A DNA stretch of 64,000 nt from Ancylobacter oerskovii. Its GTDB lineage: Bacteria > Pseudomonadota > Alphaproteobacteria > Rhizobiales > Xanthobacteraceae. The translations under genes and the position numbers were made by a program. Below, one piece after another: positions 23,977 through 39,939 of the stretch (positions are counted from its first letter, which is position 1; the number at the start of each line of letters is the position of its first letter). The notes beneath the pieces were generated by a model. That model had not been told where the DNA came from and did no database searches. It saw nothing but the letters and a program-made list of their open reading frames with translations. The stretch is from positions 186,001-250,000 of the forward strand of contig NZ_JAHBGB010000041.1 of assembly GCF_018390555.1 (NCBI RefSeq), given 5' to 3'.

Positions 23977-24165
23977 TCAGAAACCGGTCAGCGGCAGCGC
24001 CAGGGGAAGCAGCGCCAGCCCGGTGCCGATGAGCGCGACGTCGAGCAGGAGGCAGGCGCCGATCACCAGAGGGGCCGGGGTTGGGCGCTGGGCGAAGAGG
24101 GTGGCGCCGACGAACAGTACGATCAGTCCAGCGAGGATGGGGACGAGCGCGAGAGCGGGATTCAT
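23977..24165 (-). CDS. Small two-helix membrane protein coupled to cydB
   Basis: A 62-residue protein, MNPALALVPILAGLIVLFVG onward, made of two hydrophobic helices (about 4-22 and 34-56) joined by QRPTPAP. Its ATG overlaps the cydB stop codon (ATGA), so its translation is almost certainly coupled to cydB. Known small bd-oxidase subunits (CydX, CydH, the DUF2474/CioX type) are single-helix and usually shorter, so this is not an evident member. I infer an accessory or assembly subunit of this CioAB-type oxidase. Confidence 0.72.
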   Translation of the reverse strand: MNPALALVPILAGLIVLFVGATLFAQRPTPAPLVIGACLLLDVALIGTGLALLPLALPLTGF

Positions 24166-25298
24166 GGATGTGCACTCCCGGCGGCCTCGCCGCCATAGCC
24201 GCCGTGAGGAACGGCCTTGCCGCCATGGCCGCCGTGAGGAGCGGCCCTGCCGCCATAGCCGCCGTGAGGGGCGGTCTCGCCGCCATAGCCGGCATGAGGA
24301 GCGGCCTTGCCGCGGAACACCCAATAGGCATGGGCCTGATAGGCGAGCACCACCGGAAGGATGATCGCCAGCCCGACGGCAATGAACGCAAGGGTTTGCG
24401 GATCGGCCGCGCCGTCCCAGACAGTGACGTGGCGCGGTACCACGTAAGGCCAGAGGCTCACGACCAGGCCGACGAGGCCGAGGGCGAATACAACCAGCGA
24501 CAGCACGAAGGTGCGCGGCTCGGCGCCGTCCCAGATGCCGCGCCAGATGGCCGCGAGGATCGCCAGCGTGGCGAGCGGCACCGGCGCCAGCATGAGCAGG
24601 TTCGGCAAGGCGAACCAGCGGGCCGCCACCTCGGGCACCGTGATCGCGCTCCACAGGCTGACCAGCGCCATCATGACGGCGGTGAGGATCAGCGCGGCAT
24701 GGGCGATCTCGCGGGCGAAAACCTGAGTGGCGCCAACGGTTTTCCAGATGAGCCAGCCGGCGCCGATCAGCGCGTAGCCGCCGACGAGGCCGACGCCGCA
24801 CAACAGGCCGAGAAGCGAGAAGAAGCTGAACGGACCGCCGGAGAACATGCCGTCCTGCATCGGGACGCCACCGATCAGGCCGCCGAGAATCAGGCCCTGG
24901 CAAAGGGTGGCGAGGAGGGAGCCGGCGAAGAAGGCGATGTCCCACAGGAAGCGGAATCGCGTCGCCTGCAGGCGGAACTCGAAGGCGATGCCGCGGAAGA
25001 TCAGCGCGAACAGCATGAACATGATCGGCAGATAAAACGCAGGCAGAAGAACGTAGTAGCCGGCGGGGAAGGCGGCGATGAGTAGCGTGCCGCCCATCAC
25101 CAGCCAGGTTTCGTTGGCGTCCCACACCGGCTCGATGGAGGCCATCATCGCGTCGCGGTCGGCGTCGCGGGGGGCGGCGAGGAAGAGGATGCCGACCCCG
25201 AGATCGAGGCCGTCGGCCAGCACGTAGACGGTGACGCAGAAGGCGGCGACGGCGGCGAAGACGAGCGGGACGTGGGGGCCCTGCATGAGCTCGATCAT
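24162..25298 (-). CDS. cydB: Cytochrome bd-type (cyanide-insensitive) quinol oxidase subunit II
   Basis: A 378-residue, about eight-helix subunit of a CioAB/bd-type terminal oxidase. ADGLDLGVGILF and EPVWDANETWLVMGG are diagnostic. The family is about 335 residues; the excess is a C-terminal tail of four 10-residue Gly/His repeats (KAAPHAGYGG, ETAPHGGYGG, RAAPHGGHGG, KAVPHGGYGG) followed by EAAGSAHP. It starts 3 bases after the cydA stop codon and its stop overlaps the start of the small membrane gene. Confidence 0.95.
   Translation of the reverse strand: MIELMQGPHVPLVFAAVAAFCVTVYVLADGLDLGVGILFLAAPRDADRDAMMASIEPVWDANETWLVMGGTLLIAAFPAGYYVLLPAFYLPIMFMLFALIFRGIAFEFRLQATRFRFLWDIAFFAGSLLATLCQGLILGGLIGGVPMQDGMFSGGPFSFFSLLGLLCGVGLVGGYALIGAGWLIWKTVGATQVFAREIAHAALILTAVMMALVSLWSAITVPEVAARWFALPNLLMLAPVPLATLAILAAIWRGIWDGAEPRTFVLSLVVFALGLVGLVVSLWPYVVPRHVTVWDGAADPQTLAFIAVGLAIILPVVLAYQAHAYWVFRGKAAPHAGYGGETAPHGGYGGRAAPHGGHGGKAVPHGGYGGEAAGSAHP
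24181..24300. repeat. Four 30-bp tandem repeats in cydB
   Basis: Four consecutive 30-base units, each with the form NCGGNCNNGCCGCCAT followed by a GCC-rich end and TGAGG, fill exactly 120 bases. A partial fifth copy begins at 24301. They encode the 10-residue repeats at the CydB C-terminus. Copies differ at few positions, consistent with recent expansion by slippage or unequal crossing-over while keeping frame. Confidence 0.93.
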
Positions 25299-25301
25299 GG
25301 G

Positions 25302-26741
25302 TCAGGCTCCCGCCTGCTCGAGGGTGCCGGCGGCCGGCGACGAGGATGAAAAGGAGGCCGATGCGGTGGCCGATGCGGCCGACAGGCCGACATTGGTGCG
25401 ATCGAGGCCGGGACGCTCGCGGGTGGGCAGCGAGGTATCGGCCGGTCCCTTCAGCGCGGTGCGGCCGGCGAACCAGAGGAAGCTCAGCAGCAGCAGGTTG
25501 TAGACGGCGAAGAAGATGAGGAGGCTGGTGGTCACCGCCCCGGCGGTGACGGGGGCCACCGCCTCGGCGGTGCGCAGGTGGCCATAGATGATCCAGGGCT
25601 GGCGGCCCGCTTCCGTCACCGTCCAGCCGGCGAGCACGCCGAGGAAGCCGAGCGGGGTGGTGCCCATGGCGAGGAGATGGAACCAGCGGGCGTGGAAGAG
25701 GCGCCCACGCAGCCGCAGCACCAGGCCGGTGACGGCGGTGGCCAGCAAGGCGAGGCCGATGCCCACCATGATGCGGAAGGCGAAGAACACCACCGGCACG
25801 TTCGGCTGGTCGGCCGGCGGCACCGTCTTCAGGCCCGCGACCTCGCCGTCCCAGCTATGGGTGAGGTAGAGGCTGGCGAGGTGGGGGATGTCGAGGGCGT
25901 AGAGGTTCTTCTGCTCGGCCATGTCCGGCCAGGCGATGACGGTCATCGCCGGACCCCTGGTGGTGTCCCACAGGCCCTCCATGGCGGCGAGCTTCACCGG
26001 CTGGTGCTCCAGCGTGTTGCGGCCGTGCAGGTCCCCCAGCGCGATCTGGGTGGGCGCGAGGACGAGTGCCAGCCACATCGCCATCGAGAAGGCGGCGCGC
26101 GAGGCGACGAGGTGCTGGCGCCGCCAGATGTGGAAGGCCGAGACGCCCGCCACCACGAAGGCGCCGGTGAGGAAGCTGGCGCAGACCATATGGGCGAGGC
26201 GATAGGGGAAGGAGGCGGTGAAGATCGCCTGCCACCAATCGGTGACATGGAAGATGCCGTCGGCATCCGCCACCGCCCCGGCCGGGGTCTGCATCCAGCT
26301 ATTGGCGGCGATGATCCAGGTGGCGCTGAACAGCGCGCCGGAGGAGACCATCAGGCAGGAAAACAGGTGCATGCCCTTCGACACCCGCCCTTCGCCGAAC
26401 AGCATGATGCCGATGAAGCCCGCCTCCAGGAAGAAGGCGGTGAGCGTCTCGTACATGAACATCGGGCCGAGCACGTTCGACACCGAGCGGGAGAAGCCGG
26501 CCCAGTTGGTGCCGATCTCGTAGCTGAGCACGATGCCGGTGATGACGCCCATGCCGAAGCTGAGGGCGAAGAGGCGCATCCAGAAGCGCAGCAGGTCGTG
26601 ATAGACGGGCTTGCCGGTGCGCCACCACAGGAAGCTGAGCAGGGTGCAGAACCAGGCGAGGCCGATGGACAGCGTCGGCCACAGGATGTGGAAGCCGATG
26701 GTGAAGGCGAATTGCGCCCGGGCGAGCTCGACGGCGTCCAT
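25302..26741 (-). CDS. cydA: Cytochrome bd-type (cyanide-insensitive) quinol oxidase subunit I
   Basis: A 479-residue heme-bearing subunit that oxidises quinol and reduces O2 to water in the inner membrane. His18 (GFHILWP) is the high-spin heme b595 ligand, and GRQPW in helix 8-9 is the quinol oxidase signature. The Q-loop is short, as in the CioA/cyanide-insensitive group. The C-terminal tail is Ser/Ala-rich. The start at 26741 lies 2 bases after the ydeP stop codon, so the genes are one transcription unit. Confidence 0.95.
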   Translation of the reverse strand: MDAVELARAQFAFTIGFHILWPTLSIGLAWFCTLLSFLWWRTGKPVYHDLLRFWMRLFALSFGMGVITGIVLSYEIGTNWAGFSRSVSNVLGPMFMYETLTAFFLEAGFIGIMLFGEGRVSKGMHLFSCLMVSSGALFSATWIIAANSWMQTPAGAVADADGIFHVTDWWQAIFTASFPYRLAHMVCASFLTGAFVVAGVSAFHIWRRQHLVASRAAFSMAMWLALVLAPTQIALGDLHGRNTLEHQPVKLAAMEGLWDTTRGPAMTVIAWPDMAEQKNLYALDIPHLASLYLTHSWDGEVAGLKTVPPADQPNVPVVFFAFRIMVGIGLALLATAVTGLVLRLRGRLFHARWFHLLAMGTTPLGFLGVLAGWTVTEAGRQPWIIYGHLRTAEAVAPVTAGAVTTSLLIFFAVYNLLLLSFLWFAGRTALKGPADTSLPTRERPGLDRTNVGLSAASATASASFSSSSPAAGTLEQAGA

Positions 26742-26743
26742 CC

Positions 26744-29041
26744 TCAGCGCGCTCCCTGCAGGGCGGACTTCACCAGGCGGACCGGCACGCCCTTGTAGGA
26801 CGGGGTGAAGCTCTGCGGATCATGCGCATAGAGCGGCACCAGGGGATTCATCTCCGGGTAGTAGGCGGCGCAGCCGCCATCCGGGAACGCATAGGGCACC
26901 ACGCGGAAGCCGCGCACGGCACGCTCCACGCCATCGGTCGCCACGGTGACGATGTCGACGCGGTCGTCGGCCTTCAGGCCGCGCTTCGCGATCTCCCCTT
27001 CATTGAGGAAGATCACGTCGCGCTGGTTGTAGACGCCGCGATAGCGATCCGAATTCGAATAGAGCGTGGTGTTGTACTGGTCGTGGCTGCGCACCGAGGT
27101 GAGCCACAGCGCCGCCTCGTCATGGATGGTGAGGTCCTCGCAGAGGCCGTCGACGACGAGGAAATTCGCCTTGCCGGAGGCCGTCGCCCAGATGCGCTCG
27201 CGGGCCAGCGAGGTGAGGTGGAAGCCGCCCGGCTCCCTGATGCGGGCATTGTAGCCGGCGAAGATCGGGAACACCGCCTCGATGTCCTCGCGGATCAGCG
27301 CGTAGTCGCCGGCGAGCTTTTCCCACGCCACCTTCGAACGGGCGCCGAGCGTGGCGCGGGCCATGCCGGCGATGATGGCCGGCTCGCTGCGCAGATGCTC
27401 GGAGGCCGGCGGGCGCACGCCGGCGGAGGCGTGCACCATCGACATGGAATCCTCCACCGTGACCGATTGCGGGCCGGTGGCCTGGAGATCGATCTCGGTG
27501 CGGCCGAGGCAGGGCAGGATCAGCGCGTCCTTGCCGTGCACGAGATGGCTGCGGTTGAGCTTGGTGGCGATGTGGACGGTGAGGTCGAGCCGGCGCATCG
27601 CCGCCTGCGTCGCCTCCCAATCCGGGATGGCGGCGGCGAAATTGCCGCCGAGGCCGATGAACACCTTGGATTCGCCGCGTAGCATGGCTTCCAGCGCGGT
27701 GACGACGTTGTGGCCGTGCTTGCGCGGCGGCGCGAAGCCGAAGCGGGCCTCGATGCGGTCCAGCAACTCGTCGCCGGGGATCTCGGTGATGCCGACCGTG
27801 CGGTCGCCCTGCACGTTGGAATGGCCGCGCACCGGGCACATGCCGCTGCCCTCGCGGCCGATATTGCCCTTGAGCAGGGCGAGATTGGTGAGCTGCTGGA
27901 CGTTGTGCGCGCCGTGGCGGTGCTGGGTGATGCCCATGCCGTAGACGAAGATGGTGCGCTCGGCGCTCATATAGGCGCGGGCTGCCGCTTCGATATCACC
28001 GCGGGACAGCCCCGATTTGCGCTCGATATCCTCCCATTGCGTCGCCACGAGATCGGCGATGAGCGCCTCGACGCCGACCGTGTGGCCGCGGATGAAGTCC
28101 CAGTCGAGCACCGGGGCGGCCTCGGCGCGCCGGGCGGCGGCATCGGCCTCGACCAGGCATTTCATCATGCCCTTGATCACCGCGACGTCGCCGCCGACCT
28201 TCACCTGGAACAGGCGGGAGGAGATCGGCGTCGAGGTGAGCGTCGCCATCTCGATCGGGTTCTGCGGCGCCTGGAAGCGCTGCAGCGCCCGCTCCGGCAG
28301 CGGGTTGAACGACATGATGGTGGCGCCGCGCCGCGAGGCGTTGCGCAGGTCGGTCATCATGCGCGGCGAATTGGTGCCGGGGTTCTGGCCGAAGATGAAG
28401 ATGCAGTCGGCCTTCTCGAAATCCTCCAGCAGCACCGTGCCCTTGCCGACGCCGATCGACTGCGGCAGGCCGACGCTGGTGGCCTCGTGGCACATGTTGG
28501 AGCAATCGGGGAAATTGTTGGTGCCGAACTCGCGGGCGAACAGCTGGTAGAGGAAGGCGGCCTCGTTGGAGGCACGGCCGGAGGTGTAGAACTCCGCCAT
28601 GTTCGGATCGGGCAGGGCGTCGAGATGGCGGGCGACGAGGGCGAAGGCCTCCTCCCAGCTCACCGGCTCGTATTTGTCGCCGACGGAATCGTAGCGCATC
28701 GGGTGGGTGAGGCGCCCTTCCATCTCGAGCTCGAAATCGGACATCTGCTCGAGTTCGCTCACGGTGTGGGCGGCGAAGAAGTCCGGCGTGCAGCGCTTCG
28801 CCGTGGCCTCCCAGGCGACCGCCTTGCCGCCGTTCTCGCAATATTCGAAGGGCGAGGTGTGCTTGGGGTCGGCCCAGCCGCAGCCCGGGCAATCGAAGCC
28901 GCCCGGCTGGTTCATGTGCGACAGCAGTTCCATGCCCGATAGCGGGATGTCCTGTTCCACGAGCGCGGTGCCCATGGCCTTGAGCGCTCCCCAGCCGCCG
29001 GCGGGGCTGTGATAGGGGCGAATGGATTTCGCGATACCCAT
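26744..29041 (-). CDS. ydeP: YdeP/FdhF-type molybdopterin oxidoreductase
   Basis: A 765-residue bis-MGD enzyme of the DMSO-reductase superfamily, close in length to E. coli YdeP (759). CPGCGWADPK at 51-60 supplies a CxxC motif. GQNPGTNSPRMM, YGMGITQHRHGAHNVQQLTN, MCPVRGHSNVQGDRT and the C-terminal YNTTLYSNSDRYRGVYNQRD are characteristic of this branch. The reaction is unknown; E. coli YdeP contributes to acid resistance. It is fused by a 2-base gap to cydA, which suggests that its electrons reach quinol or the oxidase, or that both genes serve one stress response. Confidence 0.9.
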   Translation of the reverse strand: MGIAKSIRPYHSPAGGWGALKAMGTALVEQDIPLSGMELLSHMNQPGGFDCPGCGWADPKHTSPFEYCENGGKAVAWEATAKRCTPDFFAAHTVSELEQMSDFELEMEGRLTHPMRYDSVGDKYEPVSWEEAFALVARHLDALPDPNMAEFYTSGRASNEAAFLYQLFAREFGTNNFPDCSNMCHEATSVGLPQSIGVGKGTVLLEDFEKADCIFIFGQNPGTNSPRMMTDLRNASRRGATIMSFNPLPERALQRFQAPQNPIEMATLTSTPISSRLFQVKVGGDVAVIKGMMKCLVEADAAARRAEAAPVLDWDFIRGHTVGVEALIADLVATQWEDIERKSGLSRGDIEAAARAYMSAERTIFVYGMGITQHRHGAHNVQQLTNLALLKGNIGREGSGMCPVRGHSNVQGDRTVGITEIPGDELLDRIEARFGFAPPRKHGHNVVTALEAMLRGESKVFIGLGGNFAAAIPDWEATQAAMRRLDLTVHIATKLNRSHLVHGKDALILPCLGRTEIDLQATGPQSVTVEDSMSMVHASAGVRPPASEHLRSEPAIIAGMARATLGARSKVAWEKLAGDYALIREDIEAVFPIFAGYNARIREPGGFHLTSLARERIWATASGKANFLVVDGLCEDLTIHDEAALWLTSVRSHDQYNTTLYSNSDRYRGVYNQRDVIFLNEGEIAKRGLKADDRVDIVTVATDGVERAVRGFRVVPYAFPDGGCAAYYPEMNPLVPLYAHDPQSFTPSYKGVPVRLVKSALQGAR

Positions 29042-29076
29042 GGCGGGCTCCCGTCAGACGGCGGAGGGGAAGGGGT

Positions 29077-29919
29077 TCAGTTGCGGCCGCGCTGGGCGCT
29101 GCGCCACTGGTGCGGGGTGTCGCCGACGAAGCGGCGGAACACGGTGGTGAAGTGTGCCTGGGTCTGGAAGCCGACATCGAGCGCGATGGCGACCAGCGAG
29201 TCGCGGGTCTCCAGCATCAGCGCCTGCGCCTTCTCGATGCGCCGGCGCAGCAGGAATTCGTGCGGGCGCAGGCCGGTGGCGATGCGGAACTGGGCGGCGA
29301 AATGCATGCGGCTGAGGCCGGCGGCATCGGCCATGCCGGCGAGGGTGACGCTCTCGGCGAGATTGTCGTCGATATAGGCGAGGGCCTTCTTCAGCCGCCA
29401 CTTCGGCAGGCCGGACCGGGGACGGCGCGGGGACGGCGCGGTTTCGGGATCTCTCTCGCGGGGCTCCGGCGCATCGCCGGGGCGGACGCTGAGGGCGCGG
29501 GTGACGATGGCGAGGCGCAGCGCATCGGCATAGACGCCGCCGAATTCGTCGGCGCCGTGCTCGGCGGCTTCCAGCGCCTGCGACAGGCGGCGGATGACCG
29601 GATCGTCAGTGCCGGCGACCGCCGGGCCGGCGAGGCCCAGCGCGGCGGGCAGGTGGCTGCCGGCGACGCGCAGATGCAGGGTGCCGTCGCGGGCGGCGGC
29701 GGGCTCGACCACCGGGGCCAGGGTGCCGGGGAAGGCGCTCGCGGCGGAGATGGCGAGGACGAGGTCGATATGGCCGAGACGGACGGACAGGCTGTCGGGA
29801 GCCGCCGGCGGCGCGACCGGCGCGACCGGGCGGGGGGCGTCGAAGGGCACGGACAGGATCTCGACGGCGCGGGCAGGAGAGACGCTGCCTTCGGCAGGCG
29901 GGGAAACGTGGAACGACAT
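29077..29919 (-). CDS. AraC-family transcriptional regulator
   Basis: A 280-residue regulator. The C-terminal AraC double helix-turn-helix (about 175-275) reads LKKALAYIDDNLAESVTLAG, GLSRMHFAAQFRIATGLRPH and VAIALDVGFQTQAHFTTVFRRFVGDTPHQWR. The N-terminal 160 residues are Ala/Pro-rich and match no domain I recognise. The ATG at 29919 follows GAGGGAG; the long upstream frame is antisense to the RND operon. It is 35 bases upstream of ydeP on the same strand and divergent from the RND genes, so it may control either or both. Confidence 0.9.
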   Translation of the reverse strand: MSFHVSPPAEGSVSPARAVEILSVPFDAPRPVAPVAPPAAPDSLSVRLGHIDLVLAISAASAFPGTLAPVVEPAAARDGTLHLRVAGSHLPAALGLAGPAVAGTDDPVIRRLSQALEAAEHGADEFGGVYADALRLAIVTRALSVRPGDAPEPRERDPETAPSPRRPRSGLPKWRLKKALAYIDDNLAESVTLAGMADAAGLSRMHFAAQFRIATGLRPHEFLLRRRIEKAQALMLETRDSLVAIALDVGFQTQAHFTTVFRRFVGDTPHQWRSAQRGRN

Positions 29920-30279
29920 GGCCGGAACTCCCTCTGGAATAGGGCGGAGCGTCAGCCCGGCGTCCCCGCGATGGGATCCCGTTGAGGAAGGAGCCTGAGA
30001 TTGCCCGACCGCACGAAGATGTCCCATCGCCGTTTCTGGATGCGTCCAGGCATCGGCTGGCGATGGGAAGAGAATAGGCGCGGGGCGAATTCGCTCCATT
30101 CTACGTGGGTTTGGCCGGCTATATGAAGAGTTTGCCGCCCCCATACCTTGGTATGGGCCGCACTCGCCCGGGGCGGTGGACCGGGCGGTGGAACGGCAAG
30201 CCGGCGGCGTTCCCGAAAGAATTCGCCTCCGGGCGGGCGCAGGCAGGCAGCTGGTTTCGCTGTCGAGGGAGGACCGGAC
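29920..30279. promoter_or_regulatory. Divergent araC / RND operon control region
   Basis: This 360-base gap holds a perfect 18-base palindrome at 30140-30157 and some AT-richer sequence near 30085-30130. I see no gene in it. Confidence 0.6.
30140..30157. promoter_or_regulatory. Perfect palindrome upstream of the RND operon
   Basis: CCCATACC-TT-GGTATGGG is an 8-2-8 perfect dyad, 123 bases before the membrane-fusion gene start. AraC proteins usually bind direct repeats, so a TetR-, MarR- or MerR-type protein encoded elsewhere may bind it instead. Confidence 0.6.
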
Positions 30280-31434
30280 ATGCCGGGCTCGCGCCACCGC
30301 CGCGGATGGGTGCTGTCGTCGCTGCTTCTGGCCGGCCTCGCGGCCGGCTACGGGATATTCCGCTTCGAGGCCCGCCCGCCCGCCGCCGCGCCGGCCGCGG
30401 CGCCGGTGCCGGTGGAGACGGCGCGGGCCGGGCGGCGCGACGTGCCGGTGTTCCTCACCGGCATCGGCACGGTGGAGCCGTTCAACACCGTGACCGTGCG
30501 CTCGCGCGTCGACGGCGAGCTGCAGCAGGTGCTGTTCAGGGAAGGCCAGGACGTCCGAAAAGGCGACCTCCTGGCGGTGATCGACCCGCGCACCTTCGAG
30601 GCGGCGCTGCAGGAGGCGCAGGCGAAGCTGCAGCAGGACGAGGCCTCGCTCGCCAATGCCCGGCTGATCCTCGACCGCGACGCGCAGCTCGGCAAGGACG
30701 CCTTCGCCAGCACGCAGGCGGTGGACAACCAGCGGAGCGCGGTGCAGCAGCTCGAAGCGCAGATCGCCCAGGACCAGGCGGCGATCTCCACCGCGCAGAC
30801 GCAGCTCTCCTATACGCGCATCGCCGCGCCCATCGACGGGCGCGCCGGGCTGCGGCTGGTGGACGAGGGCAACATCGTGCATGCGAGCGACGTGGGCGGC
30901 CTCGTCGTGCTCAACCAGCTGCACCCGATCTCGGTGATCTCGACGCTGCCGCAGGCCGACGTGCCGGCGATCCGCGCCGCGCTGGACAAGGGGGCGACGC
31001 CGGCGCAGGCGATGTCGCGGGAGGGCGGGCAGGAGGCGGGCGGGCAATGGCTCGCCACCGGCACGGTGGAGCTGATCGACAACAAGATCGACCCGCAGAG
31101 CGGCACGCTGCAGGTGAAATCGGTGTTCGCCAATGCCGACGATGCGCTGTGGCCGGGCCAGTTCGTCGAACTGCGGCTGCAGGTGAAGACGCTGCCCGGG
31201 GTCGTCACCGTGCCGGCGGATGCGGTGCAGCGCGGGCCCGCGGGCGCGTTCGTCTTCGTGGTCGGGGCCGATGGCCGCGTAACGACGGCACCGGTGACGG
31301 TGGGGCCGATCGCCGACGGCATCGCGGTGATCGAAAAGGGGATCGAGCCCGGCCAGACGGTAGTGGTGCATGGCCAGTACCGCCTCGCGCCCGGCACCGC
31401 GGTGACGGAAGCGGCCGCCGGGACGGGAGGCTGA
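30280..31434 (+). CDS. RND efflux periplasmic adaptor (MdtA/AcrA family)
   Basis: A 384-residue membrane-fusion protein. It has an N-terminal anchor (VLSSLLLAGLAAGYGIFRF), a biotinyl-lipoyl-like half (VRSRVDGELQQVLFREGQDV), an alpha-helical hairpin of about 70 residues, the second lipoyl half (YTRIAAPIDGRAGLRLVDEG) and beta-barrel domains. The ATG at 30280 follows GAGGGAGG. It partners the pump encoded 3 bases downstream; no outer-membrane factor gene is linked. Confidence 0.93.
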   Translation: MPGSRHRRGWVLSSLLLAGLAAGYGIFRFEARPPAAAPAAAPVPVETARAGRRDVPVFLTGIGTVEPFNTVTVRSRVDGELQQVLFREGQDVRKGDLLAVIDPRTFEAALQEAQAKLQQDEASLANARLILDRDAQLGKDAFASTQAVDNQRSAVQQLEAQIAQDQAAISTAQTQLSYTRIAAPIDGRAGLRLVDEGNIVHASDVGGLVVLNQLHPISVISTLPQADVPAIRAALDKGATPAQAMSREGGQEAGGQWLATGTVELIDNKIDPQSGTLQVKSVFANADDALWPGQFVELRLQVKTLPGVVTVPADAVQRGPAGAFVFVVGADGRVTTAPVTVGPIADGIAVIEKGIEPGQTVVVHGQYRLAPGTAVTEAAAGTGG

Positions 31435-31436
31435 TC

Positions 31437-34400
31437 ATGGCGTCCTCCCCGGTCTCGCTCTCCTCCTGGTTCGTCCGCCATCCCATCGGCACCTCGCTGC
31501 TGATGGCGGGGCTGCTGATGCTCGGCGCGGTGGCCTTTCCGCGCCTGCCGGTGGCGCCGCTGCCGGAGGTGGACTTCCCGACGCTGTCGGTCTCCACCCA
31601 ATTGCCCGGCGCCAGCCCGGAGATCATCGCCTCCTCCGTGACGCAGCCGCTGGAGCGGCAATTCGGCGAGATTCCGGGCCTGGCGCAGATGACCTCGATC
31701 TCGACGCTGGGCAATTCCTCGATCACGCTGCAATTCGATCTCGACGTCGACATCAACGCGGCGGCGCAGGACGTGCAGACGGCGATCAACGCCGCCGGCG
31801 GGCAATTGCCGACCGACCTGCCGGCACCGCCGACCTATCGCAAGGTGAACCCGGCCGACCCGCCAATCCTGGTGCTGGCGCTGACCTCCGGGACGCTGCC
31901 GATCACGCAGGTGGACGACTTCGCCGAGAACGTGCTGGAGCAGCATGTCAGCCAGATCGGCGGCGTCGGGCAGGTGCTGATCTACGGCCAGCAGAAGCCT
32001 TCGGTGCGTATCCAGGTCGATCCGGCGAAGCTGGCCAATCTCGGCCTGTCGCTGGAGGACATCAGGCAGGCCATCGTCTCGCTGACGGTGAACGATCCCA
32101 AGGGCACGGTGCAGGGGCGACAGCGCACCTTCACCCTGTTCGACAACGACCAATTGACCTCGGCCGGGCCATGGCGCGACGCCATCCTCGCCTGGCGCGA
32201 CGGCGCGCCGGTGCGGGTGCGCGACATCGGCACCGCCGTCGACGCGCCGGAGAACGACCAGCTGGCCGCTTGGTCGAACGGTGAGCCGGCTATCATCATT
32301 CCCGTGTTCAAACTGCCGGGCGCCAACGTCATCGACACGGTGGAGGCGATCAAGGCACAGCTGCCGGGGCTGATGGCCACCGCGCCCGCCGGAATCACGC
32401 TGTCGATCGTCAGCGACCGCACCGGCACCATCCGCGCCTCGGTGGAGGATGTGGAGAAGACGCTGATCATCACCGTGGTGCTGGTGGTGGCGGTGATCTT
32501 CGTGTTCCTGCGCAACCTGTGGGCGACGGTGATCCCGTCCATCGCGGTGCCGCTCGCCATCATCGGCACCTTCGCGGCGATGTACGCGCTCGGCTACAGC
32601 CTCGACAACCTGTCGCTGATGGGGCTGTCCATCGCGGTGGGCTTCGTGGTCGACGACGCCATCGTCATGCTCGAGAACATCGAGCGGCACCTGGAGATGG
32701 GCAAGACGCCGCTCGAGGCGGCGCTCGACGGCTCGGCGGAGATCGGCTTCACCATATTGTCGATCAGCCTGTCGCTGATCGCGGTGTTCATCCCGCTCTT
32801 GCTGATGGGCGGGCTGGTGGGGCGGCTGTTCCGCGAATTCGCGGTGACGGTGACGATCACCATCGCGATCTCCGCCTTCGTGTCGCTGACGCTGACCCCG
32901 ATGCTGTGCGCGCTGTTCCTGCGGCCGAAGGGCAAGGAGCAGGCGCATGGGCGGCTCTATCTGTGGTCCGAACGCGGCTTCGACGCCTTGCTGGCGGGGT
33001 ATGCCCGCACGCTCGACCTCGCGCTCGACCATCGGCGCGCGACGCTGGCCGTGTTCGCGGCGGCGGTGGCCGCGACCGGGGTGCTGTTCTACGAAATCCC
33101 CAAGGGCTTCTTCCCGCTGCAAGACACCGGGCTGATCATCGGCGTATCGGAGGCGGCGCAGGACATCTCCTTTTCGCAGATGGTCCGGCACCAGCTGGAG
33201 CTCGGCAGGATCGTCGCCGCCGACCCGGATGTCGCCACCGTCGGCATGGGGGTCGGCGCCGGCGCCGGCCAGACGGTGAACAATGGCCGCATGTTCATCA
33301 CGCTGAAGCCGCGCGACGCGCGCACGGCCTCGGTGTTCGAGATCATCGACCGGCTCAATGCCCGGCTCGCCAAGGTGGAGGGCGCGGCGCTGTTCCTGCA
33401 GGCGGCGCAGGACCTCAATGTCGGCGGCCGGGTGTCGCGCACGCAGTTCCAGTACACGCTGCAGGACGGCAATATCGACGAGCTCAACGAATGGGCGCCG
33501 AAGATGCTGGCCAAGCTGCGGACGCTGCCGCAGCTGAACAGCCTCGCCAGCGACCAGCAGGCCGGCGGGGCGACGCTGACGCTCGCCATCGACCGCGACC
33601 AGGCGTCACGGCTCGGCATCAGCCCGGCCGATATCGACAACACCCTCTACGACGCCTTCGGCCAGCGGCAGGTGACGCAGTACTTCACCCAGCTGAATTC
33701 CTATCACGTCATATTGGAGCTGGAGCCGGCGCTGCAGAACTCGCCGCACGCGCTGGACGGGATCTACCTGACCTCGCCGCTGACCGGCGCCAGGGTGCCG
33801 CTCTCGGTGCTGGCGAAATGGACCAGCGAGCCGACGAGCTTCCTGTCGATCAACCACCAGTCGCAATTCCCCTCGGTGACGCTGTCCTTCAACCTCGCGC
33901 CCGGCGTGGCGCTGGGCGAGGCGGTGGCGGCGATCCACCAGGCGGAGGCCGAGATCGGCAAGCCGGCGACGCTGACCGGCAGCTTCCAGGGCAATGCGCA
34001 GGCCTTCCAGGCCTCGCTGGCGAGCGAGCCGGCGCTGGTGCTGGCGGCGCTCGTCGTCATCTACATCATCCTCGGCGTGCTCTATGAGAGCTATGTCCAC
34101 CCGCTGACCATCCTCTCGACGCTGCCCTCGGCGGGGCTCGGGGCGCTGGCGATGCTGTGGCTGTCCGGCTTCGACTTCTCGATCATCGCGCTGATCGGCG
34201 TCATCCTCTTGATCGGCATCGTGAAGAAGAACGGCATCATGATCGTCGACTTCGCCATTGCCCGGGAGCGGGGCGAGGGGGGCGTGCGGATGCCGGCGCA
34301 TGACGCGATCCGCGAGGCGTGCCTGCTGCGCTTCCGGCCGATCCTGATGACCACCTTCGCCGCGCTGCTGGCCGGCGTGCCGCTGGTGATCGGCCACGGC

Positions 34401-34556
34401 ACCGGCTCGGAGCTGCGCCAGCCGCTCGGCATCGCCATCGTCGGCGGGTTGGCGGTGAGCCAGCTGCTGACCCTCTACACCACCCCGGTGATCTATCTCG
34501 CGCTTGACGGGCTGCGGACACGCCTCGCCCGGCGGCGCGACGTGCCGGCGACATAG
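31437..34556 (+). CDS. RND multidrug efflux transporter (MdtB/MdtC type)
   Basis: A 1039-residue proton-driven inner-membrane pump with 12 helices and two large periplasmic loops. The proton-relay Asp pair is in helix 4 (VGFVVDDAIVMLENIERH). PEVDFPTLSVSTQLPGASPE near the N-terminus and the helix 11-12 repeat (KKNGIMIVDFAI, LRFRPILMTT) are canonical. The start at 31437 is 2 bases after the adaptor stop codon; the long upstream frame is a shadow. A monooxygenase follows after 14 bases. Confidence 0.95.
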   Translation: MASSPVSLSSWFVRHPIGTSLLMAGLLMLGAVAFPRLPVAPLPEVDFPTLSVSTQLPGASPEIIASSVTQPLERQFGEIPGLAQMTSISTLGNSSITLQFDLDVDINAAAQDVQTAINAAGGQLPTDLPAPPTYRKVNPADPPILVLALTSGTLPITQVDDFAENVLEQHVSQIGGVGQVLIYGQQKPSVRIQVDPAKLANLGLSLEDIRQAIVSLTVNDPKGTVQGRQRTFTLFDNDQLTSAGPWRDAILAWRDGAPVRVRDIGTAVDAPENDQLAAWSNGEPAIIIPVFKLPGANVIDTVEAIKAQLPGLMATAPAGITLSIVSDRTGTIRASVEDVEKTLIITVVLVVAVIFVFLRNLWATVIPSIAVPLAIIGTFAAMYALGYSLDNLSLMGLSIAVGFVVDDAIVMLENIERHLEMGKTPLEAALDGSAEIGFTILSISLSLIAVFIPLLLMGGLVGRLFREFAVTVTITIAISAFVSLTLTPMLCALFLRPKGKEQAHGRLYLWSERGFDALLAGYARTLDLALDHRRATLAVFAAAVAATGVLFYEIPKGFFPLQDTGLIIGVSEAAQDISFSQMVRHQLELGRIVAADPDVATVGMGVGAGAGQTVNNGRMFITLKPRDARTASVFEIIDRLNARLAKVEGAALFLQAAQDLNVGGRVSRTQFQYTLQDGNIDELNEWAPKMLAKLRTLPQLNSLASDQQAGGATLTLAIDRDQASRLGISPADIDNTLYDAFGQRQVTQYFTQLNSYHVILELEPALQNSPHALDGIYLTSPLTGARVPLSVLAKWTSEPTSFLSINHQSQFPSVTLSFNLAPGVALGEAVAAIHQAEAEIGKPATLTGSFQGNAQAFQASLASEPALVLAALVVIYIILGVLYESYVHPLTILSTLPSAGLGALAMLWLSGFDFSIIALIGVILLIGIVKKNGIMIVDFAIARERGEGGVRMPAHDAIREACLLRFRPILMTTFAALLAGVPLVIGHGTGSELRQPLGIAIVGGLAVSQLLTLYTTPVIYLALDGLRTRLARRRDVPAT

Positions 34557-34570
34557 CGAGGAGCCTATTC

Positions 34571-35680
34571 ATGCGCATCATCATTGCCGGCGGTTCGGTC
34601 GGCGGGCTGTTCGTTTCCGAGCTGCTGCGCCGGGACGGGCACGACGTCACCCTTCTCGAGCGCTCGGCGCTGGGGCTCGAGGGGCGCGGCGCCGGCCTCG
34701 TCGCCCAGAGCGAGGTGTTCGACATGCTGCGCGAGGCCGGGGTCGCGCATCTCGCGACCTTCGGCGTCGTGGCGCGCGAGCGCATTCATCTCGACCGCGC
34801 CGGCGCCATCGTACACCGGCAGGCGACGCCGCAGACGCAGCTTTCCTGGGACCGGCTGTTCCGCACCTTCCGCGAGCGGGTGCCGGAGGGGGGCTATGTC
34901 GGCGGCCGGGCGGTGACGGGCGTGACGCAGGAGGCGCGGCGCGCGCGGGTGCATCTCGCCGATGGCGGGGTGGAGGAGGCGGATCTCGTCATCGCCGCCG
35001 ACGGGCTGGGCTCGACCTTGCGCGAGGCGGTGGCCGGGCCGGGCGCGCAGCCCGCCTATGCCGGCTATGTCGCCTGGCGCGGGCTGGTGCCGGAGGCGGC
35101 CATGCCGCCCGAGGCGGCGGCGACGCTGTTCGAGCGCTTCGCTTTCCACGACATGCCGGGCTCGCAGGCATTGGGCTATCTGGTGCCCGGGGCGGACGGG
35201 GCGATCGAGCGCGGGCGGCGGCGCTACAACTGGGTCTGGTACCGGCGCTACACGCCGGAGGAACTGGCGGGCGTGCTCACCGACGCGGAAGGGCAGCGCC
35301 ACGACTTCTCGCTGGCGCCGGGGCAGATGGCGCCGGCGGCGGCCGACGCCCTGCGCGCCGATGCCGCCCGGCTGCTGCCGCCGGCCTTCGCGGCGGCGGT
35401 GGCGGCGGAGCCGCGCCCCTTCGTGCAGGCGATCTTCGACTACGAGGCGCCGCGCCTCGTCGCCGGCCGTCTCGCCCTGACCGGCGACGCCGCCTTCGTC
35501 GCCCGGCCGCACACCGCCATGGGCGTCGCCAAGGCGGCGGGCGACGCCTTCGCCCTGCGCGACGCGCTGGCCGGGCAGCCGGACCTCGCCGGCGCGCTGG
35601 CGGCCTATGAGCGGGCGCGCCTGCCGCATGGGCGGGCAGTGGTGGAATATGGCCGGCGGCTCGGCGCCTTCCTCGGCTGA
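34571..35680 (+). CDS. FAD-dependent aromatic monooxygenase (group A flavoprotein)
   Basis: A 369-residue NAD(P)H flavin hydroxylase. The FAD-binding GxGxxG-type loop is IIIAGGSVGGLFVSELL with the acidic LLER end. The DG motif (VIAADGLGSTLR) and the GD motif (LTGDAAFVARPHTAMGVAKA) are intact. The latter resembles 2,6-dihydroxypyridine 3-hydroxylase-like members. It lies 14 bases after the RND pump, so it may oxidise a compound the pump exports. TetX-like drug inactivation is possible but not shown. Confidence 0.88.
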   Translation: MRIIIAGGSVGGLFVSELLRRDGHDVTLLERSALGLEGRGAGLVAQSEVFDMLREAGVAHLATFGVVARERIHLDRAGAIVHRQATPQTQLSWDRLFRTFRERVPEGGYVGGRAVTGVTQEARRARVHLADGGVEEADLVIAADGLGSTLREAVAGPGAQPAYAGYVAWRGLVPEAAMPPEAAATLFERFAFHDMPGSQALGYLVPGADGAIERGRRRYNWVWYRRYTPEELAGVLTDAEGQRHDFSLAPGQMAPAAADALRADAARLLPPAFAAAVAAEPRPFVQAIFDYEAPRLVAGRLALTGDAAFVARPHTAMGVAKAAGDAFALRDALAGQPDLAGALAAYERARLPHGRAVVEYGRRLGAFLG

Positions 35681-35689
35681 GGCCGGGGC

Positions 35690-37282
35690 TCAGCCCCAGT
35701 AATGGCGCGGGCTGAGCGGCCCGCGCGGCGCCTGGCCGAGCAGGGCGACGACGAGGAGTCCGGCCAGCGCGCCCCAGTAGCAGAGCTGGAAGCCGTCAAT
35801 ATAGGCGAGCACGTTCGCCTCCCGCGCCACCACGGCGGCGAGGCTGGCGACGCCGCGCGCGCTGGCCTGCTGCGCCGAGGCGCCGGCATCGGCGAAGGGC
35901 GCGGTGAAGCCATGCAGCGCGTCCGTCACCTTCGGGCTCGCCGCGGAGACGTGCAGGCCGAGCAGATAGGAATGCAACTGCTCGCGATGGCGCAGGAAGG
36001 TCATCATGATGCTGATGCCGGTCTCGGCGCCGCCGAGGCGCAGCACCTGGATATAGGCGCCGACCGCGGTGGCCTGCTTCGGATCGGAATTGGTGAGCAG
36101 ATAGACCACCGCCGCCAGGAAGGTGAAGCCCTGGCCCACCGACTGGATGAGCAGCATCGGCAGGAAGCTCCAGGGCGACCATTCATGGGTGATCTGGGTG
36201 CCCATATGCGCGGCGATGGCGAAGGCGAGGAAGCCGATCAGGAGGCTGAGCCGCGCATCGAACAGGCGGATCATGACCACCGCGATCGGCATGATCACCA
36301 AGAGCGGCAGCGCGACGCCGACGAAGATCGGCCCGCCGATCTCCTCCGGCCGCAGGCCGATCACGTTGGACAGGAAATTGGGCACCAGCAGGCTGTTCGA
36401 CATGCTGGCGAGGTTGAAGCAGAGGATGACGAGGAAGCCGAGCAGGATGTTGCGCTTGGCGATGACCCGGTGGCTGGCCCAGGGCGCCTTCACCAGCATC
36501 TCGTTGGCGAAGAAGCCGAGATGCAGCACGATGCCGGCCAGCAGCAGGGTGAGGATCAGCCCCGATTGCAGCCAGTCCAGCCGGTTGCCCTGGTCGAGCG
36601 CCACATAGATGAGCGCCCAGCTGGAGCCGAGCAGCGCCATGCCGCCCCAGTCGGCGCGCTGCAGCAGGGCGAAGTCGACCTTCTCCACCGGCGAGCCGAG
36701 GCGCACGAGGATGCCGATGAGCGGCGCGAGGAAGACGTCCTGCCAATAGACCCACTGCCAGGACAGGTGGATCTCGTAGAAGCCGACGATGGCGACGCCG
36801 GCGCTCTGCGAGAAGGCGAGGCGGAAGGCGTAGACGGCCAGCGCCGGCACCCACCATTTCAGCGGCAGGTTGCGGAAGATGATCATGATCGTCGCCGGGA
36901 TGAACACCCCGAGCAGGAAGCCGCGCAGCCCGTGCAGCAGCGCCAGCGTCTCCCAGTTGCGCACCTCCGGGATGATCATCGACACCACCGCATAGGCGAG
37001 GCTGGGCCAGAACAGCACCCGGCCGACGCCGAAGGTGGCCGCCAGCCAGGCGACGGCCGGGGCGATGAAGATCTGCGGCGCGGTGGCGATGGTGGACAGC
37101 CAGGCGCCCTGGTCGAAGCTGAGCCCGAAGGCGCCGCGCAGATCCGGCAGGCCGATGGAGAACAGCCGCGTGTCGAAGCCGACGAGGAAGGAGCCGAGCA
37201 GTACCGCGGCGGCGGCGAGCGCCGGCCGGCCATAGGGCCGGCTCTGCGCCGGGGCGGGAGGGGCGGCGGCGAGGGCGGCCAT
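35690..37282 (-). CDS. MFS multidrug exporter, DHA2/EmrB family
   Basis: A 530-residue, about 14-helix proton antiporter. LLGSFLVGFDTRLFSIGLPDLRG and SFDQGAWLSTIATAPQI occupy helices 1-2, and the typical EmrB C-terminal segments follow (SDPKQATAVGAYIQVLRLGG). The ATG at 37282 is 5 bases past the stop codon of the adaptor gene at 37288-38505, so the two form a tripartite EmrAB-type pump. The open frame upstream is a shadow of that adaptor. It is convergent with the monooxygenase. Confidence 0.92.
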   Translation of the reverse strand: MAALAAAPPAPAQSRPYGRPALAAAAVLLGSFLVGFDTRLFSIGLPDLRGAFGLSFDQGAWLSTIATAPQIFIAPAVAWLAATFGVGRVLFWPSLAYAVVSMIIPEVRNWETLALLHGLRGFLLGVFIPATIMIIFRNLPLKWWVPALAVYAFRLAFSQSAGVAIVGFYEIHLSWQWVYWQDVFLAPLIGILVRLGSPVEKVDFALLQRADWGGMALLGSSWALIYVALDQGNRLDWLQSGLILTLLLAGIVLHLGFFANEMLVKAPWASHRVIAKRNILLGFLVILCFNLASMSNSLLVPNFLSNVIGLRPEEIGGPIFVGVALPLLVIMPIAVVMIRLFDARLSLLIGFLAFAIAAHMGTQITHEWSPWSFLPMLLIQSVGQGFTFLAAVVYLLTNSDPKQATAVGAYIQVLRLGGAETGISIMMTFLRHREQLHSYLLGLHVSAASPKVTDALHGFTAPFADAGASAQQASARGVASLAAVVAREANVLAYIDGFQLCYWGALAGLLVVALLGQAPRGPLSPRHYWG

Positions 37283-37287
37283 GGCCG

Positions 37288-38505
37288 TCACTTCGCCGCG
37301 TCGATATGGATCGCCGCCTCGACCGACATGCCGGCGCGCAGCCTGCCGGTCAGCGCCTGCCCCGGCTCGATGGCGATGCGCACCGGGATGCGCTGCACCA
37401 CCTTGGTGAAGTTGCCGGTGGCGTTGTCGGGCGGCAGCAGCGCGAACACCGAGCCGCTGGCCGGCGAGACCCGCTCCACCTCGCCGCGCAGCGTCTGGCC
37501 GGGGAAGGTGTCGACGGTGATGTCGACCTTCTGGCCCGGCGCGACATGGGTGAGCTGGGTCTCCTTGAAATTGGCGATGACGTAGACATTGGGGATCGGC
37601 ACGGCGGCGATCAGGTTGGTGCCGATGTTCACGTAATCGCCGACCTGCACGAGGCGGGTGCCGACGATGCCGTCGAAGGGGGCGCTCACCTGCGTGTAGC
37701 CGAGCTTGAGGTCGGCGGTCTTCAGATTGGCGTTGGCGGCGTCGAGATTGGCGCGCAGCGTGCCCTCCTGCCCGGTGAGCACGTCGAGCTGGCGCTTCTG
37801 TGCCTCGATGGCCGCCTGCGCCGAGCGGACGTCGGCCTGCGCCTTGGCCAGATTGGCGGTGGCCTGCTGCAGCTTCTGCTCGGTGCCGGCGATGCCGCCC
37901 TGCACCAGGGTCTGCTGGCGGGTGAACTCCTCGCTCATCTCCACCTCGGCGGCCTGGGCGGAGACGAGCTGCGCCTCGGCCTGGCTGATCACCGCCCGCT
38001 GGAGTTCCTCCTGGTTGCGCAGATTGGTGAGCGCCGCCTGCGCACCCTCCACCGCCGCCTGCGCGCCGTCGCGGGCGGCCTGGTAATCGGCGGGGTCGAT
38101 CTCGACCAGGGGCTGGCCGGCCTTCACCGCCTGATAGTCGTCGACCAGCACCTTCAGCACGTTGCCGCTGATGCGGGCGCTGAGCGTCGAGACATCGGCA
38201 TGCACATAGGCGTCGTCGGTATATTGCACCGGCCGGTCGCTGGCCCACTGGCTCCAGCGGCCATTGGCATAGACGAGCAGGCCGCCCAGCGCCAGGATCG
38301 CCACCAGCGGGATCAGCAGGCGGCGCAGGCTGGCGGCGAGCGAGAAGGGCGCCTCGTCCCCCGGCGAGGCCGGGCCGGTGGCGGCGGCAGGATCGGGGGG
38401 CGTCTTGGCGAGCATGGTCACGGGGGCCTTCCCTTCGGGCGGACGCATCGCCGCCGGCCCGACGATCCTGACGGCCCGGGCGGCGACGCGCTTCTCAAAA
38501 TCCAT
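37288..38505 (-). CDS. HlyD-family membrane-fusion protein (EmrA type)
   Basis: A 405-residue adaptor for the EmrB-like exporter. A single membrane anchor (LLIPLVAILALGGLLVYANG) precedes TDDAYVHADVSTLSARISG, the classic EmrA entry into the lipoyl domain, then a long coiled-coil hairpin (about 135-250) and the barrel domain. Starts at 38448 and 38415 are also possible, and none has a clearly better ribosome binding site. It lies 50 bases downstream of another MFS gene. Confidence 0.9.
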   Translation of the reverse strand: MDFEKRVAARAVRIVGPAAMRPPEGKAPVTMLAKTPPDPAAATGPASPGDEAPFSLAASLRRLLIPLVAILALGGLLVYANGRWSQWASDRPVQYTDDAYVHADVSTLSARISGNVLKVLVDDYQAVKAGQPLVEIDPADYQAARDGAQAAVEGAQAALTNLRNQEELQRAVISQAEAQLVSAQAAEVEMSEEFTRQQTLVQGGIAGTEQKLQQATANLAKAQADVRSAQAAIEAQKRQLDVLTGQEGTLRANLDAANANLKTADLKLGYTQVSAPFDGIVGTRLVQVGDYVNIGTNLIAAVPIPNVYVIANFKETQLTHVAPGQKVDITVDTFPGQTLRGEVERVSPASGSVFALLPPDNATGNFTKVVQRIPVRIAIEPGQALTGRLRAGMSVEAAIHIDAAK

Positions 38506-38555
38506 TCCGCGCCGTCACGGGCGTGTGGACCCGAAACGGCGCGGAACCGAGAATG

Positions 38556-39758
38556 TCACCCGGCACGGCGGCGGGCCAGAGCCGCGAGCTGCAGCGCGGT
38601 CGCCACCGCCGAGAGGCCGATGCCGAGGGCGCAGACCGCGGCCCAGCCGCCGGCGTTCCAGGCGAGGCTCGCCGTGGCGGAGCCGAGGGCGCCGCCGAGG
38701 AACATCGCCCCCATCAGCACGGTGTTCAGCCGGGCCCGCGCGGCGGGGCGCAGCGAGAACACGATGTGCTGGTTGGAGACCAGCGCGCTCTGTATGCCGA
38801 AATCGAGCAGGATCACCCCCACCACCAGCCCGGCCAGCGAGCCCCAGGCACCGAAGACGAACCACGAGACCAGCGTCACGACGGCCCCCAGCATCACCGC
38901 CTGCGAGGCGCCGCGCCTGTCGGCGAAGCGGCCGGCCAGCGGCGCGGCGAGGATGCCGACCGCGCCGACGAGGCCGAACAGGCCGGCAATATCGGCGCCG
39001 AGGCCGAAGCGGGGCTCCTCCAGCCGGAAGGCGAGCACGGTCCAGAAGACCGTGAAGGCGGCGAACAGGGCGGCCTGCGTCAGCGCCGCCAGCCGCAGCG
39101 CCGGGAACTCGTTCCACAGATGCGCGATGGAATGCAGCAGCCGGCCGTAAGGCAGGGTGGAATCCGGTCGGCTGTGCGGCAGGACGAGCGCCATCAGCCC
39201 GGCGGCGGCGAGCGCCATCGGCACGGCGAGCCAGAACATCTCGCGCCAGCCGCCATGGGTGGCGACGAAGCCGGCGAGGGTGCGGCTGAACAGGATGCCG
39301 GTGAGCAGGCCGGCCATGACGGTGCCGACCGTGGCACCCCGCTTTTCCGGCGCGGCGAGATGGGCGGCGAGCGGCACGATCTGCTGCGCCACCGTGGCGG
39401 CCAGCCCTACCGCCAGCGAGGCCAGCACGATCGTCGCGCCGGTGGGGGCGATGGCGGCGAGCACCAGCGCCGCCGCCAGCGCCACGAACTGCGCCACGAT
39501 CAGCCGGCGCCGCTCGACGAGATCGCCGAGCGGGACCAGGAGGAACAGGCCGACGGCATAGCCGAGCTGCGTCGCGGTGGGGATCGCGGCGGTGGCGGGG
39601 CCGGGCAGCTCCTGCTCGATGATCGCGAGCATGGGCTGGTTGTAGTAGATGTTGGCGACGGCGAGGCCGGCGGCCGCCGCCATGGCGAAGGTGGTGGCAT
39701 GGCCGAGGGCGGCCGGCGCGTGCACGCCTTCGCCGTGCACGCTGTCTTGCGTGGTCAT
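38556..39758 (-). CDS. MFS exporter (DHA1 / YnfM-like)
   Basis: A 400-residue, 12-helix drug:H+ antiporter type carrier. [38 protein letters not shown] and [21 protein letters not shown] are typical of the subgroup usually paired with LysR or MarR regulators. The ATG at 39758 follows AGGAGAGA. It is divergent from a LysR gene and upstream of the EmrAB-like pair, so the three efflux genes may be coordinately controlled. Confidence 0.9.
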
Positions 39759-39939
39759 GATATCTCTCCTGCGGCCGACAGGCGCGCGCATGGCGCGGAA
39801 CGGTCCGGCGTCGGTCGCCTCTGTCGGGTGTCGATCGGCCGGCATCGCGTGGCCGGTATCGGTTGCGCTGAAGATAATCCTTCGCGACATCCGTTATAGT
39901 GTCTTGCAGTGATGCACGATTGTATCGGATTCTGATGCA

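Follow-up and report, generated by a model that had tools for sequence, protein, structure and literature searches.

Small membrane proteins of several kinds are held in cyd operons, and such proteins are easily missed. Short membrane proteins such as AcrZ and KdpF are also known to tune larger machines, namely pumps and transporters. Among the small subunits of bd oxidases, CydX, CydS and CydH are single-helix proteins according to the relevant passages of PMC8951039. CydX homologues with a second helix are reported in a section of PMC4325964, which also places a Trp at the helix start of CydX, CydY and CydZ, and describes CydZ (DUF2474) and the small protein termed CydY there as a helix with a conserved Trp. 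Two-segment CydX-like proteins of acetic acid bacteria, Acidiphilium and Salinisphaera are described in part of PMC5322542. Here we analysed a stretch of 64,000 nucleotides from Ancylobacter oerskovii (the window), in which a preliminary description had picked out a small gene behind cydB as a candidate new subunit of a bd-type oxidase, on the premise that the known small subunits are all single-helix. This premise does not hold in view of the passages on two-helix CydX-like proteins in PMC5322542 and PMC4325964; two helices alone are not new, because two-segment proteins of this kind had already been described in the former.

The small gene occupies 23977..24165 on the minus strand and its ATG overlaps the stop codon of cydB (24162-25298, minus strand) by 4 nt, as ATGA; the length of 62 residues, the coordinates, the strand and the overlap had all been described correctly. 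In genomes G000, G004 (A. sonchi) and G027 (A. defluvii), a ribosome-site-like GGGAG motif precedes the start codon by 9 nt. By itself, a 62-codon open reading frame would mean little in the G+C-rich DNA of the window. This one is more than chance, because a family-profile search of 30 Ancylobacter genomes found homologues in 12 (E 3.5e-30 to 1.1e-17, with a profile that included sequences, or identical copies, of 10 of these 12 carriers and left out G003), because dN/dS was 0.12-0.57 over 14 genome pairs, and because synonymous changes outnumbered nonsynonymous ones in Fisher tests made with rounded counts on three genome pairs (p = 6e-7 for G004 and G024 [Ancylobacter sp. Lp-2], 3e-5 for G000 and G004, 1e-4 for G009 and G007). 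The small gene is a real gene under purifying selection. It is short, hydrophobic and seen in a single genus, as a spurious frame or a decaying remnant might be, but the homologues and the conserved residues described below speak against this reading and the dN/dS values contradict it, making it very improbable.

Sequence searches found no described family for the protein and point to a new small family. There was no significant Pfam match for it or for 10 members (best 0.016, DUF2157, two members) and no significant NCBIfam match; the best there (0.0021, from one member) was to an MFS efflux model and was taken as chance hydrophobic similarity, although the gene does follow an MFS gene in two genomes. 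Searching PHROGs with the members gave nothing convincing (best 0.0018, two members, an unnamed family), a plasmid search gave no match, and solved structures offered no convincing match by sequence (best 0.2) or by fold (best E 2.7). No paper in the open-access literature searched was recognised as describing the gene. A single-sequence search of 61 genomes returned weaker matches down to 0.097, and among the weak ones within the genus that in G003 alone (0.0018) was upheld by the profile, those in G029, G017 and G001 being dropped. Scanning genome contigs for a single short peptide pattern, which fits window-like members only, yielded four Ancylobacter loci (A. sonchi, A. defluvii, A. gelatini [G025] and Ancylobacter sp. 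Lp-2). A denser search of 119 genomes of the bacterial family, with at most 53 candidates scored per genome, gave three matches, all in Ancylobacter, one of 47 genera. When the profile was run over 397 genomes of the order, scoring the best 15 or fewer first-look candidates per genome, only weak matches appeared beyond the window's genome; they came from 18 genomes (8.6e-7 to 9.3e-4), lay inside open frames of 186-604 aa, and were taken as chance similarity to larger membrane proteins. In these searches the family is known from Ancylobacter only; a diverged relative elsewhere is possible, since few candidates were scored per genome in the order-wide search and the peptide pattern was narrow.

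The two helices claimed for the protein are borne out by hydropathy, which is high at both ends, and by an AlphaFold2 model, which predicts a hairpin of helices 4-26 and 32-56 (mean pLDDT 80.4, pTM 0.51). R27, the sole basic residue of the window protein, sits in the loop. Basic residues of the other family sequences likewise fall within or at the loop, apart from one each close to the C terminus in G022 and G021. This concentration of basic residues suggests that the loop is cytoplasmic and that both termini lie outside. Near the middle of helix 2, all 11 distinct sequences have an acidic residue (D42 in 10 of them and E in that of G022). As G005 and G016 share one sequence, this accounts for all 12 carriers. 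These core residues, namely AG at 12-13, the mid-helix acid and L53-P54, are kept in every gene context, including that of G003. A Trp stands at the start of helix 2 in 8 of the 12 carriers (7 of the 11 distinct sequences); the window protein, which has no Trp at all, and its three nearest relatives (the radC-linked group) are without it.

In the window, the small gene comes last in the row AraC-fdhF-cydA-cydB-small, all on the minus strand, an arrangement suggestive of an operon under AraC control. The row is headed by an AraC-family regulator at about 29077..30081, whose AraC-type HTH matches all fall below the NCBIfam cut-offs and whose A. gelatini homologue has matches to PF12833 and PF00165. 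An FdhF/YdeP family molybdopterin oxidoreductase (26744..29041; TIGR01701, 973.3 bits, cut-off 582.15) lies just upstream of cydA, the gene for bd oxidase subunit I (25302..26741; PF01654, 519.3 bits), which lies upstream of cydB, the gene for subunit II (PF02322, 272.5 bits). A radC-like gene converges on the small gene from the other side. Beyond the regulator, a divergent RND-type pump on the plus strand (30148..34556) consists of an adaptor (30148-31434) and an MdtB/MuxB-like permease (31431-34556; 1240 bits, below the model's cut-off), and is followed on the same strand by a FAD-dependent monooxygenase-like protein (34571..35680; NF005566, a model titled 'hypothetical protein', 474.7 bits). 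An EmrAB-like pump on the minus strand (35690..38505; best specific matches below cut-offs) comprises a DHA2-type MFS protein (35690-37288) and an HlyD/EmrA-like adaptor (37288-38505), and its homologues precede the small gene in G005 and G016. The names radC, MAP, GNAT, RND adaptor (from homology) and pyruvate-oxidase-like enzyme were given by eye, from reading the sequences. The region 26744-39890, with the regulator, FdhF/YdeP, CydAB, RND pump, monooxygenase and EmrAB-like pump, forms an island that is rearranged among Ancylobacter genomes.

FdhF/YdeP-family genes of P. putida are formate-induced, and cioAB overexpression on formate addition is discussed, in the relevant part of PMC10308882. 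The Ancylobacter island may likewise respond to formate or a related stress. It brings an FdhF/YdeP enzyme together with efflux pumps and a bd oxidase in the neighbourhood of one AraC regulator, and looks like a tractable stress-respiration unit of environmental bacteria.

The preliminary description had also suggested that the small protein and a repeat tail of CydB may form an unusual oxidase module. The His/Gly-rich tail is encoded by a real array, a 30-bp tandem repeat of 4.4 copies (24181..24313, minus strand), but no tie between the two was found. The array is not shared by the closest relatives, A. sonchi and A. defluvii, whose CydB tail holds about one repeat unit.

The gene contexts of the 12 carriers differed widely. 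The order seen in the window, with the 4-nt cydB overlap, is found in G000, A. sonchi, A. defluvii and G022. In A. gelatini the small gene overlaps, again by 4 nt, a CydB-like gene that follows AraC. This gene (L079:5964-6974, minus strand; PF02322, 184.5 bits) is placed between the two without a CydA beside it, and its product is 48% identical to the window CydB. In Lp-2, at the radC site as in the window, the small gene follows AraC directly; the order in G005 and G016 is AraC-HlyD-MFS-small-hydrolase; in G021, G009 and G007 a gap of 115, 184 and 188 nt, respectively, separates cydB from the small gene, which a hydrolase follows; and in G003 the small gene and the hydrolase are the only island pair left in the 10 kb examined. 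Thus 8 of 12 carriers have a cydB-family gene just before the small gene, in one case the CydB-like gene lacking CydA and in five with the 4-nt overlap, and the small gene lies away from any cydB in the other four (G024, G005, G016 and G003). The cluster begins with an AraC homologue in 8 carriers and is without one in G021, G009, G007 and G003, and an HlyD-MFS pair lies within it in 7. A PF00561 hydrolase is next downstream in 6 carriers, and none was found adjoining in the other 6, which include all five with an overlap. AraC-hydrolase clusters without the small gene occur in G018, G014, G013, G029 and G011. The case of Lp-2 is instructive. Its fdhF-cydAB locus, sister to that of A. sonchi, lies elsewhere, next to the RND pump, and lacks the small gene; the latter remains beside AraC and is still intact and under constraint (dN/dS 0.13 in comparison with A. 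sonchi). G003, a 97% complete genome, has one cydB genome-wide, of another type, and the oxidase type of the window is missing.

There are 25 loci of the window's type with cydA and cydB in the genus (cydB assigned by score), and the small gene is next after cydB at 7 of them (G000, G004, G027, G022, G021, G009 and G007); at the other 18, a scan of the 1500 nt downstream turned up no same-strand open reading frame for a hydrophobic protein of 30-130 aa. In G008 and G002 (loci L074 and L075), a large enzyme resembling a thiamine-pyrophosphate pyruvate oxidase lies closely 3' of cydB in the place of the small gene. Among oxidases outside the genus, drawn from the best 30 loci of one search and three of another, all six of the window's type from two other genera of the bacterial family (75-81% CydB identity) were without the small gene, as were nine further ones at 46-50% CydB identity. 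In a tree of CydA and CydB, all 7 loci linked to the small gene fell into one subclade of 14 rows (support 87/96), together with loci that lack the gene. This tree has 31 rows, of which X607, X499 (a long branch) and G024b are weakly placed, and the named outgroup does not form one side of a branch; it replaced an earlier CydB tree of 33 rows, in which the A. gelatini CydB-like protein and another oxidase type, now left out, formed very long branches. The small-gene label is clustered on the tree (4 changes, where shuffling gave 6.4 on average and so low a count in 8 of 500 trials), and 10 of the 14 subclade genomes carry the small gene somewhere, as do 2 of the 16 genomes outside the subclade (Fisher p = 0.002, uncorrected for relatedness), but a single clade of the 7 linked loci plus the Lp-2 orthologue was rejected (AU p = 0.0036). 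From the clustering, this rejection and the genome counts, we conclude that the small gene and the oxidase are associated, but that the gene is often missing or lies apart. The tree would also allow the gene to have been gained once beside cydAB and then lost and moved.

The proposal of a new bd-oxidase subunit is therefore upheld in part: the gene is real and follows a cydB-family gene in most carriers, in five of them with an overlap, but most oxidase loci of this type lack it and a third of the carriers have it away from cydB. Conservation next to cydB, for which the preliminary description had suggested a search in other genomes, was likewise half borne out: it holds for most carriers but for a minority of the oxidase loci, with an association limited to one clade. 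Because the same protein changes neighbours across the 30 genomes, adjacency to cydB and translational coupling in one genome are insufficient to define a subunit.

Since the parts of the island recombine and the neighbours of the small gene shuffle, the most economical account is that the small protein is an optional inner-membrane accessory of a stress/respiration island, usually one with an AraC regulator, and we tentatively prefer this reading while placing it a little short of probable. Its two helices, joined by a short basic and presumably cytoplasmic loop and with an acidic residue in the middle of helix 2, would most likely pack against or tune the large membrane proteins of the island, perhaps CydAB in the window, where the ATGA overlap probably couples its translation to that of CydB, and the EmrB-like pump or another partner elsewhere; it would not be an obligate, defining subunit of the oxidase. 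The constraint on the Lp-2 gene, which has no adjoining cydAB, and the retention of the core residues in all contexts support such an accessory. On the other side, cydB-family genes accompany the small gene as often as AraC does and are the sole neighbours with a 4-nt overlap; since these overlaps are confined to cydB-family genes and recur with two CydB proteins that are only 48% identical, they favour a link to CydB. AraC is also missing from the cluster in four carriers, and the five AraC-hydrolase clusters do without the small gene. The main rival is a facultative, lineage-specific structural subunit of the one FdhF-linked CydAB subclade, which would stabilise the complex or shield hemes as CydX and CydH do. 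Its position after cydB-family genes, the five overlaps and the concentration of carriers in the subclade argue for it, as does the Trp at the start of helix 2 in 8 carriers, which recalls the helix start of CydX, CydY and CydZ in the section of PMC4325964 cited above. The Trp is, however, missing from the window protein and its three nearest relatives; 18 of 25 loci in the genus and all six in the two other genera lack the gene, G003 carries it without the oxidase type, and neither the tree test nor profile comparison with known subunits (below) sides with it. We regard this subunit as possible but the weaker candidate.

It is also conceivable, with a lower likelihood again, that the small protein is a portable hairpin serving several membrane machines that replace one another within one AraC regulon. 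Eight genomes hold AraC and the small gene in one cluster, and there the two enclose varied cargo (the FdhF-CydA-CydB set, an HlyD-MFS pump, a CydB-like protein lacking CydA, or nothing), and the invariant mid-membrane acid might belong to a shared modulator of oxidase and pump, for example in proton or quinone handling. A partnership with the adjoining alpha/beta hydrolase, as its membrane anchor or as an exporter of its substrate or product, would make cydAB an accidental neighbour. It draws on the six carriers with the hydrolase next downstream, including G003, but the other six lack it there, including every one with a cydB-family overlap, and AraC-adjoining hydrolase homologues occur without the small gene in the five genomes named above; we consider it rather unlikely, and less likely than the facultative subunit. 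Should the optional accessory that we prefer turn out to tune CydAB, Ancylobacter would offer natural pairs of close oxidases with and without it, for example those of A. sonchi and Lp-2.

How the protein compares with the known small subunits was examined by aligning profiles. With CydX (seven sequences from Ancylobacter), two-helix CydX (three) and DUF2474 (one) as partners, hhalign gave 0.2-0.4%, within the 0.1-0.7% obtained with the reversed profile, while a positive control, Ancylobacter two-helix CydX against CydX, gave 95.1%. By this comparison the protein resembles none of these three groups. CydX/YbgT (PF08173) is, like the small protein, hydrophobic and short, and it is encoded just after cydB, where the small gene stands in 8 of 12 carriers, counting the CydB-like gene without CydA, and not in 4. 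It has a W-Y-x-x-W helix start that is absent from the small protein, which has no match to its profile (hhalign 0.2%). The small gene is absent from most related operons. To the three two-helix CydX of Ancylobacter the hhalign value was 0.4%, and the second helix did not align with CydX. These three proteins, of 60-81 aa, are encoded 12-20 nt after the divergent cydB of another bd oxidase in G010, G012 and G025 (L086, L087 and L088); their second helix is CydX-like and an additional helix precedes it, a variant of a kind already in print, and that of L086 scores 22.7 bits against PF08173, below the cut-off of 26.2. DUF2474/CydZ/CioX (PF10617) resembles the small protein in being small and encoded after cydB, in CIO-type operons, but has a single helix with a conserved Trp according to PMC4325964, against two predicted helices, no Trp in the window protein and no profile match (hhalign 0.2%) for the small protein. 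A DUF2474 protein (53.8 bits) is encoded after the cydB of another oxidase type in G022 (L040), its start lying 1 nt ahead of the end of that gene's stop codon. A search of the window's own genome for DUF2474 was negative, as were its controls, so that a copy there is possible. CydH/CydY (YnhF) of E. coli bd-I differs in having a single helix, according to the passages of PMC8951039, where the small protein has two predicted, and the small protein has no match in Pfam or NCBIfam, libraries that may or may not include a YnhF model. CydH/CydY is encoded away from cydAB, as is the small gene in 4 of its 12 carriers.
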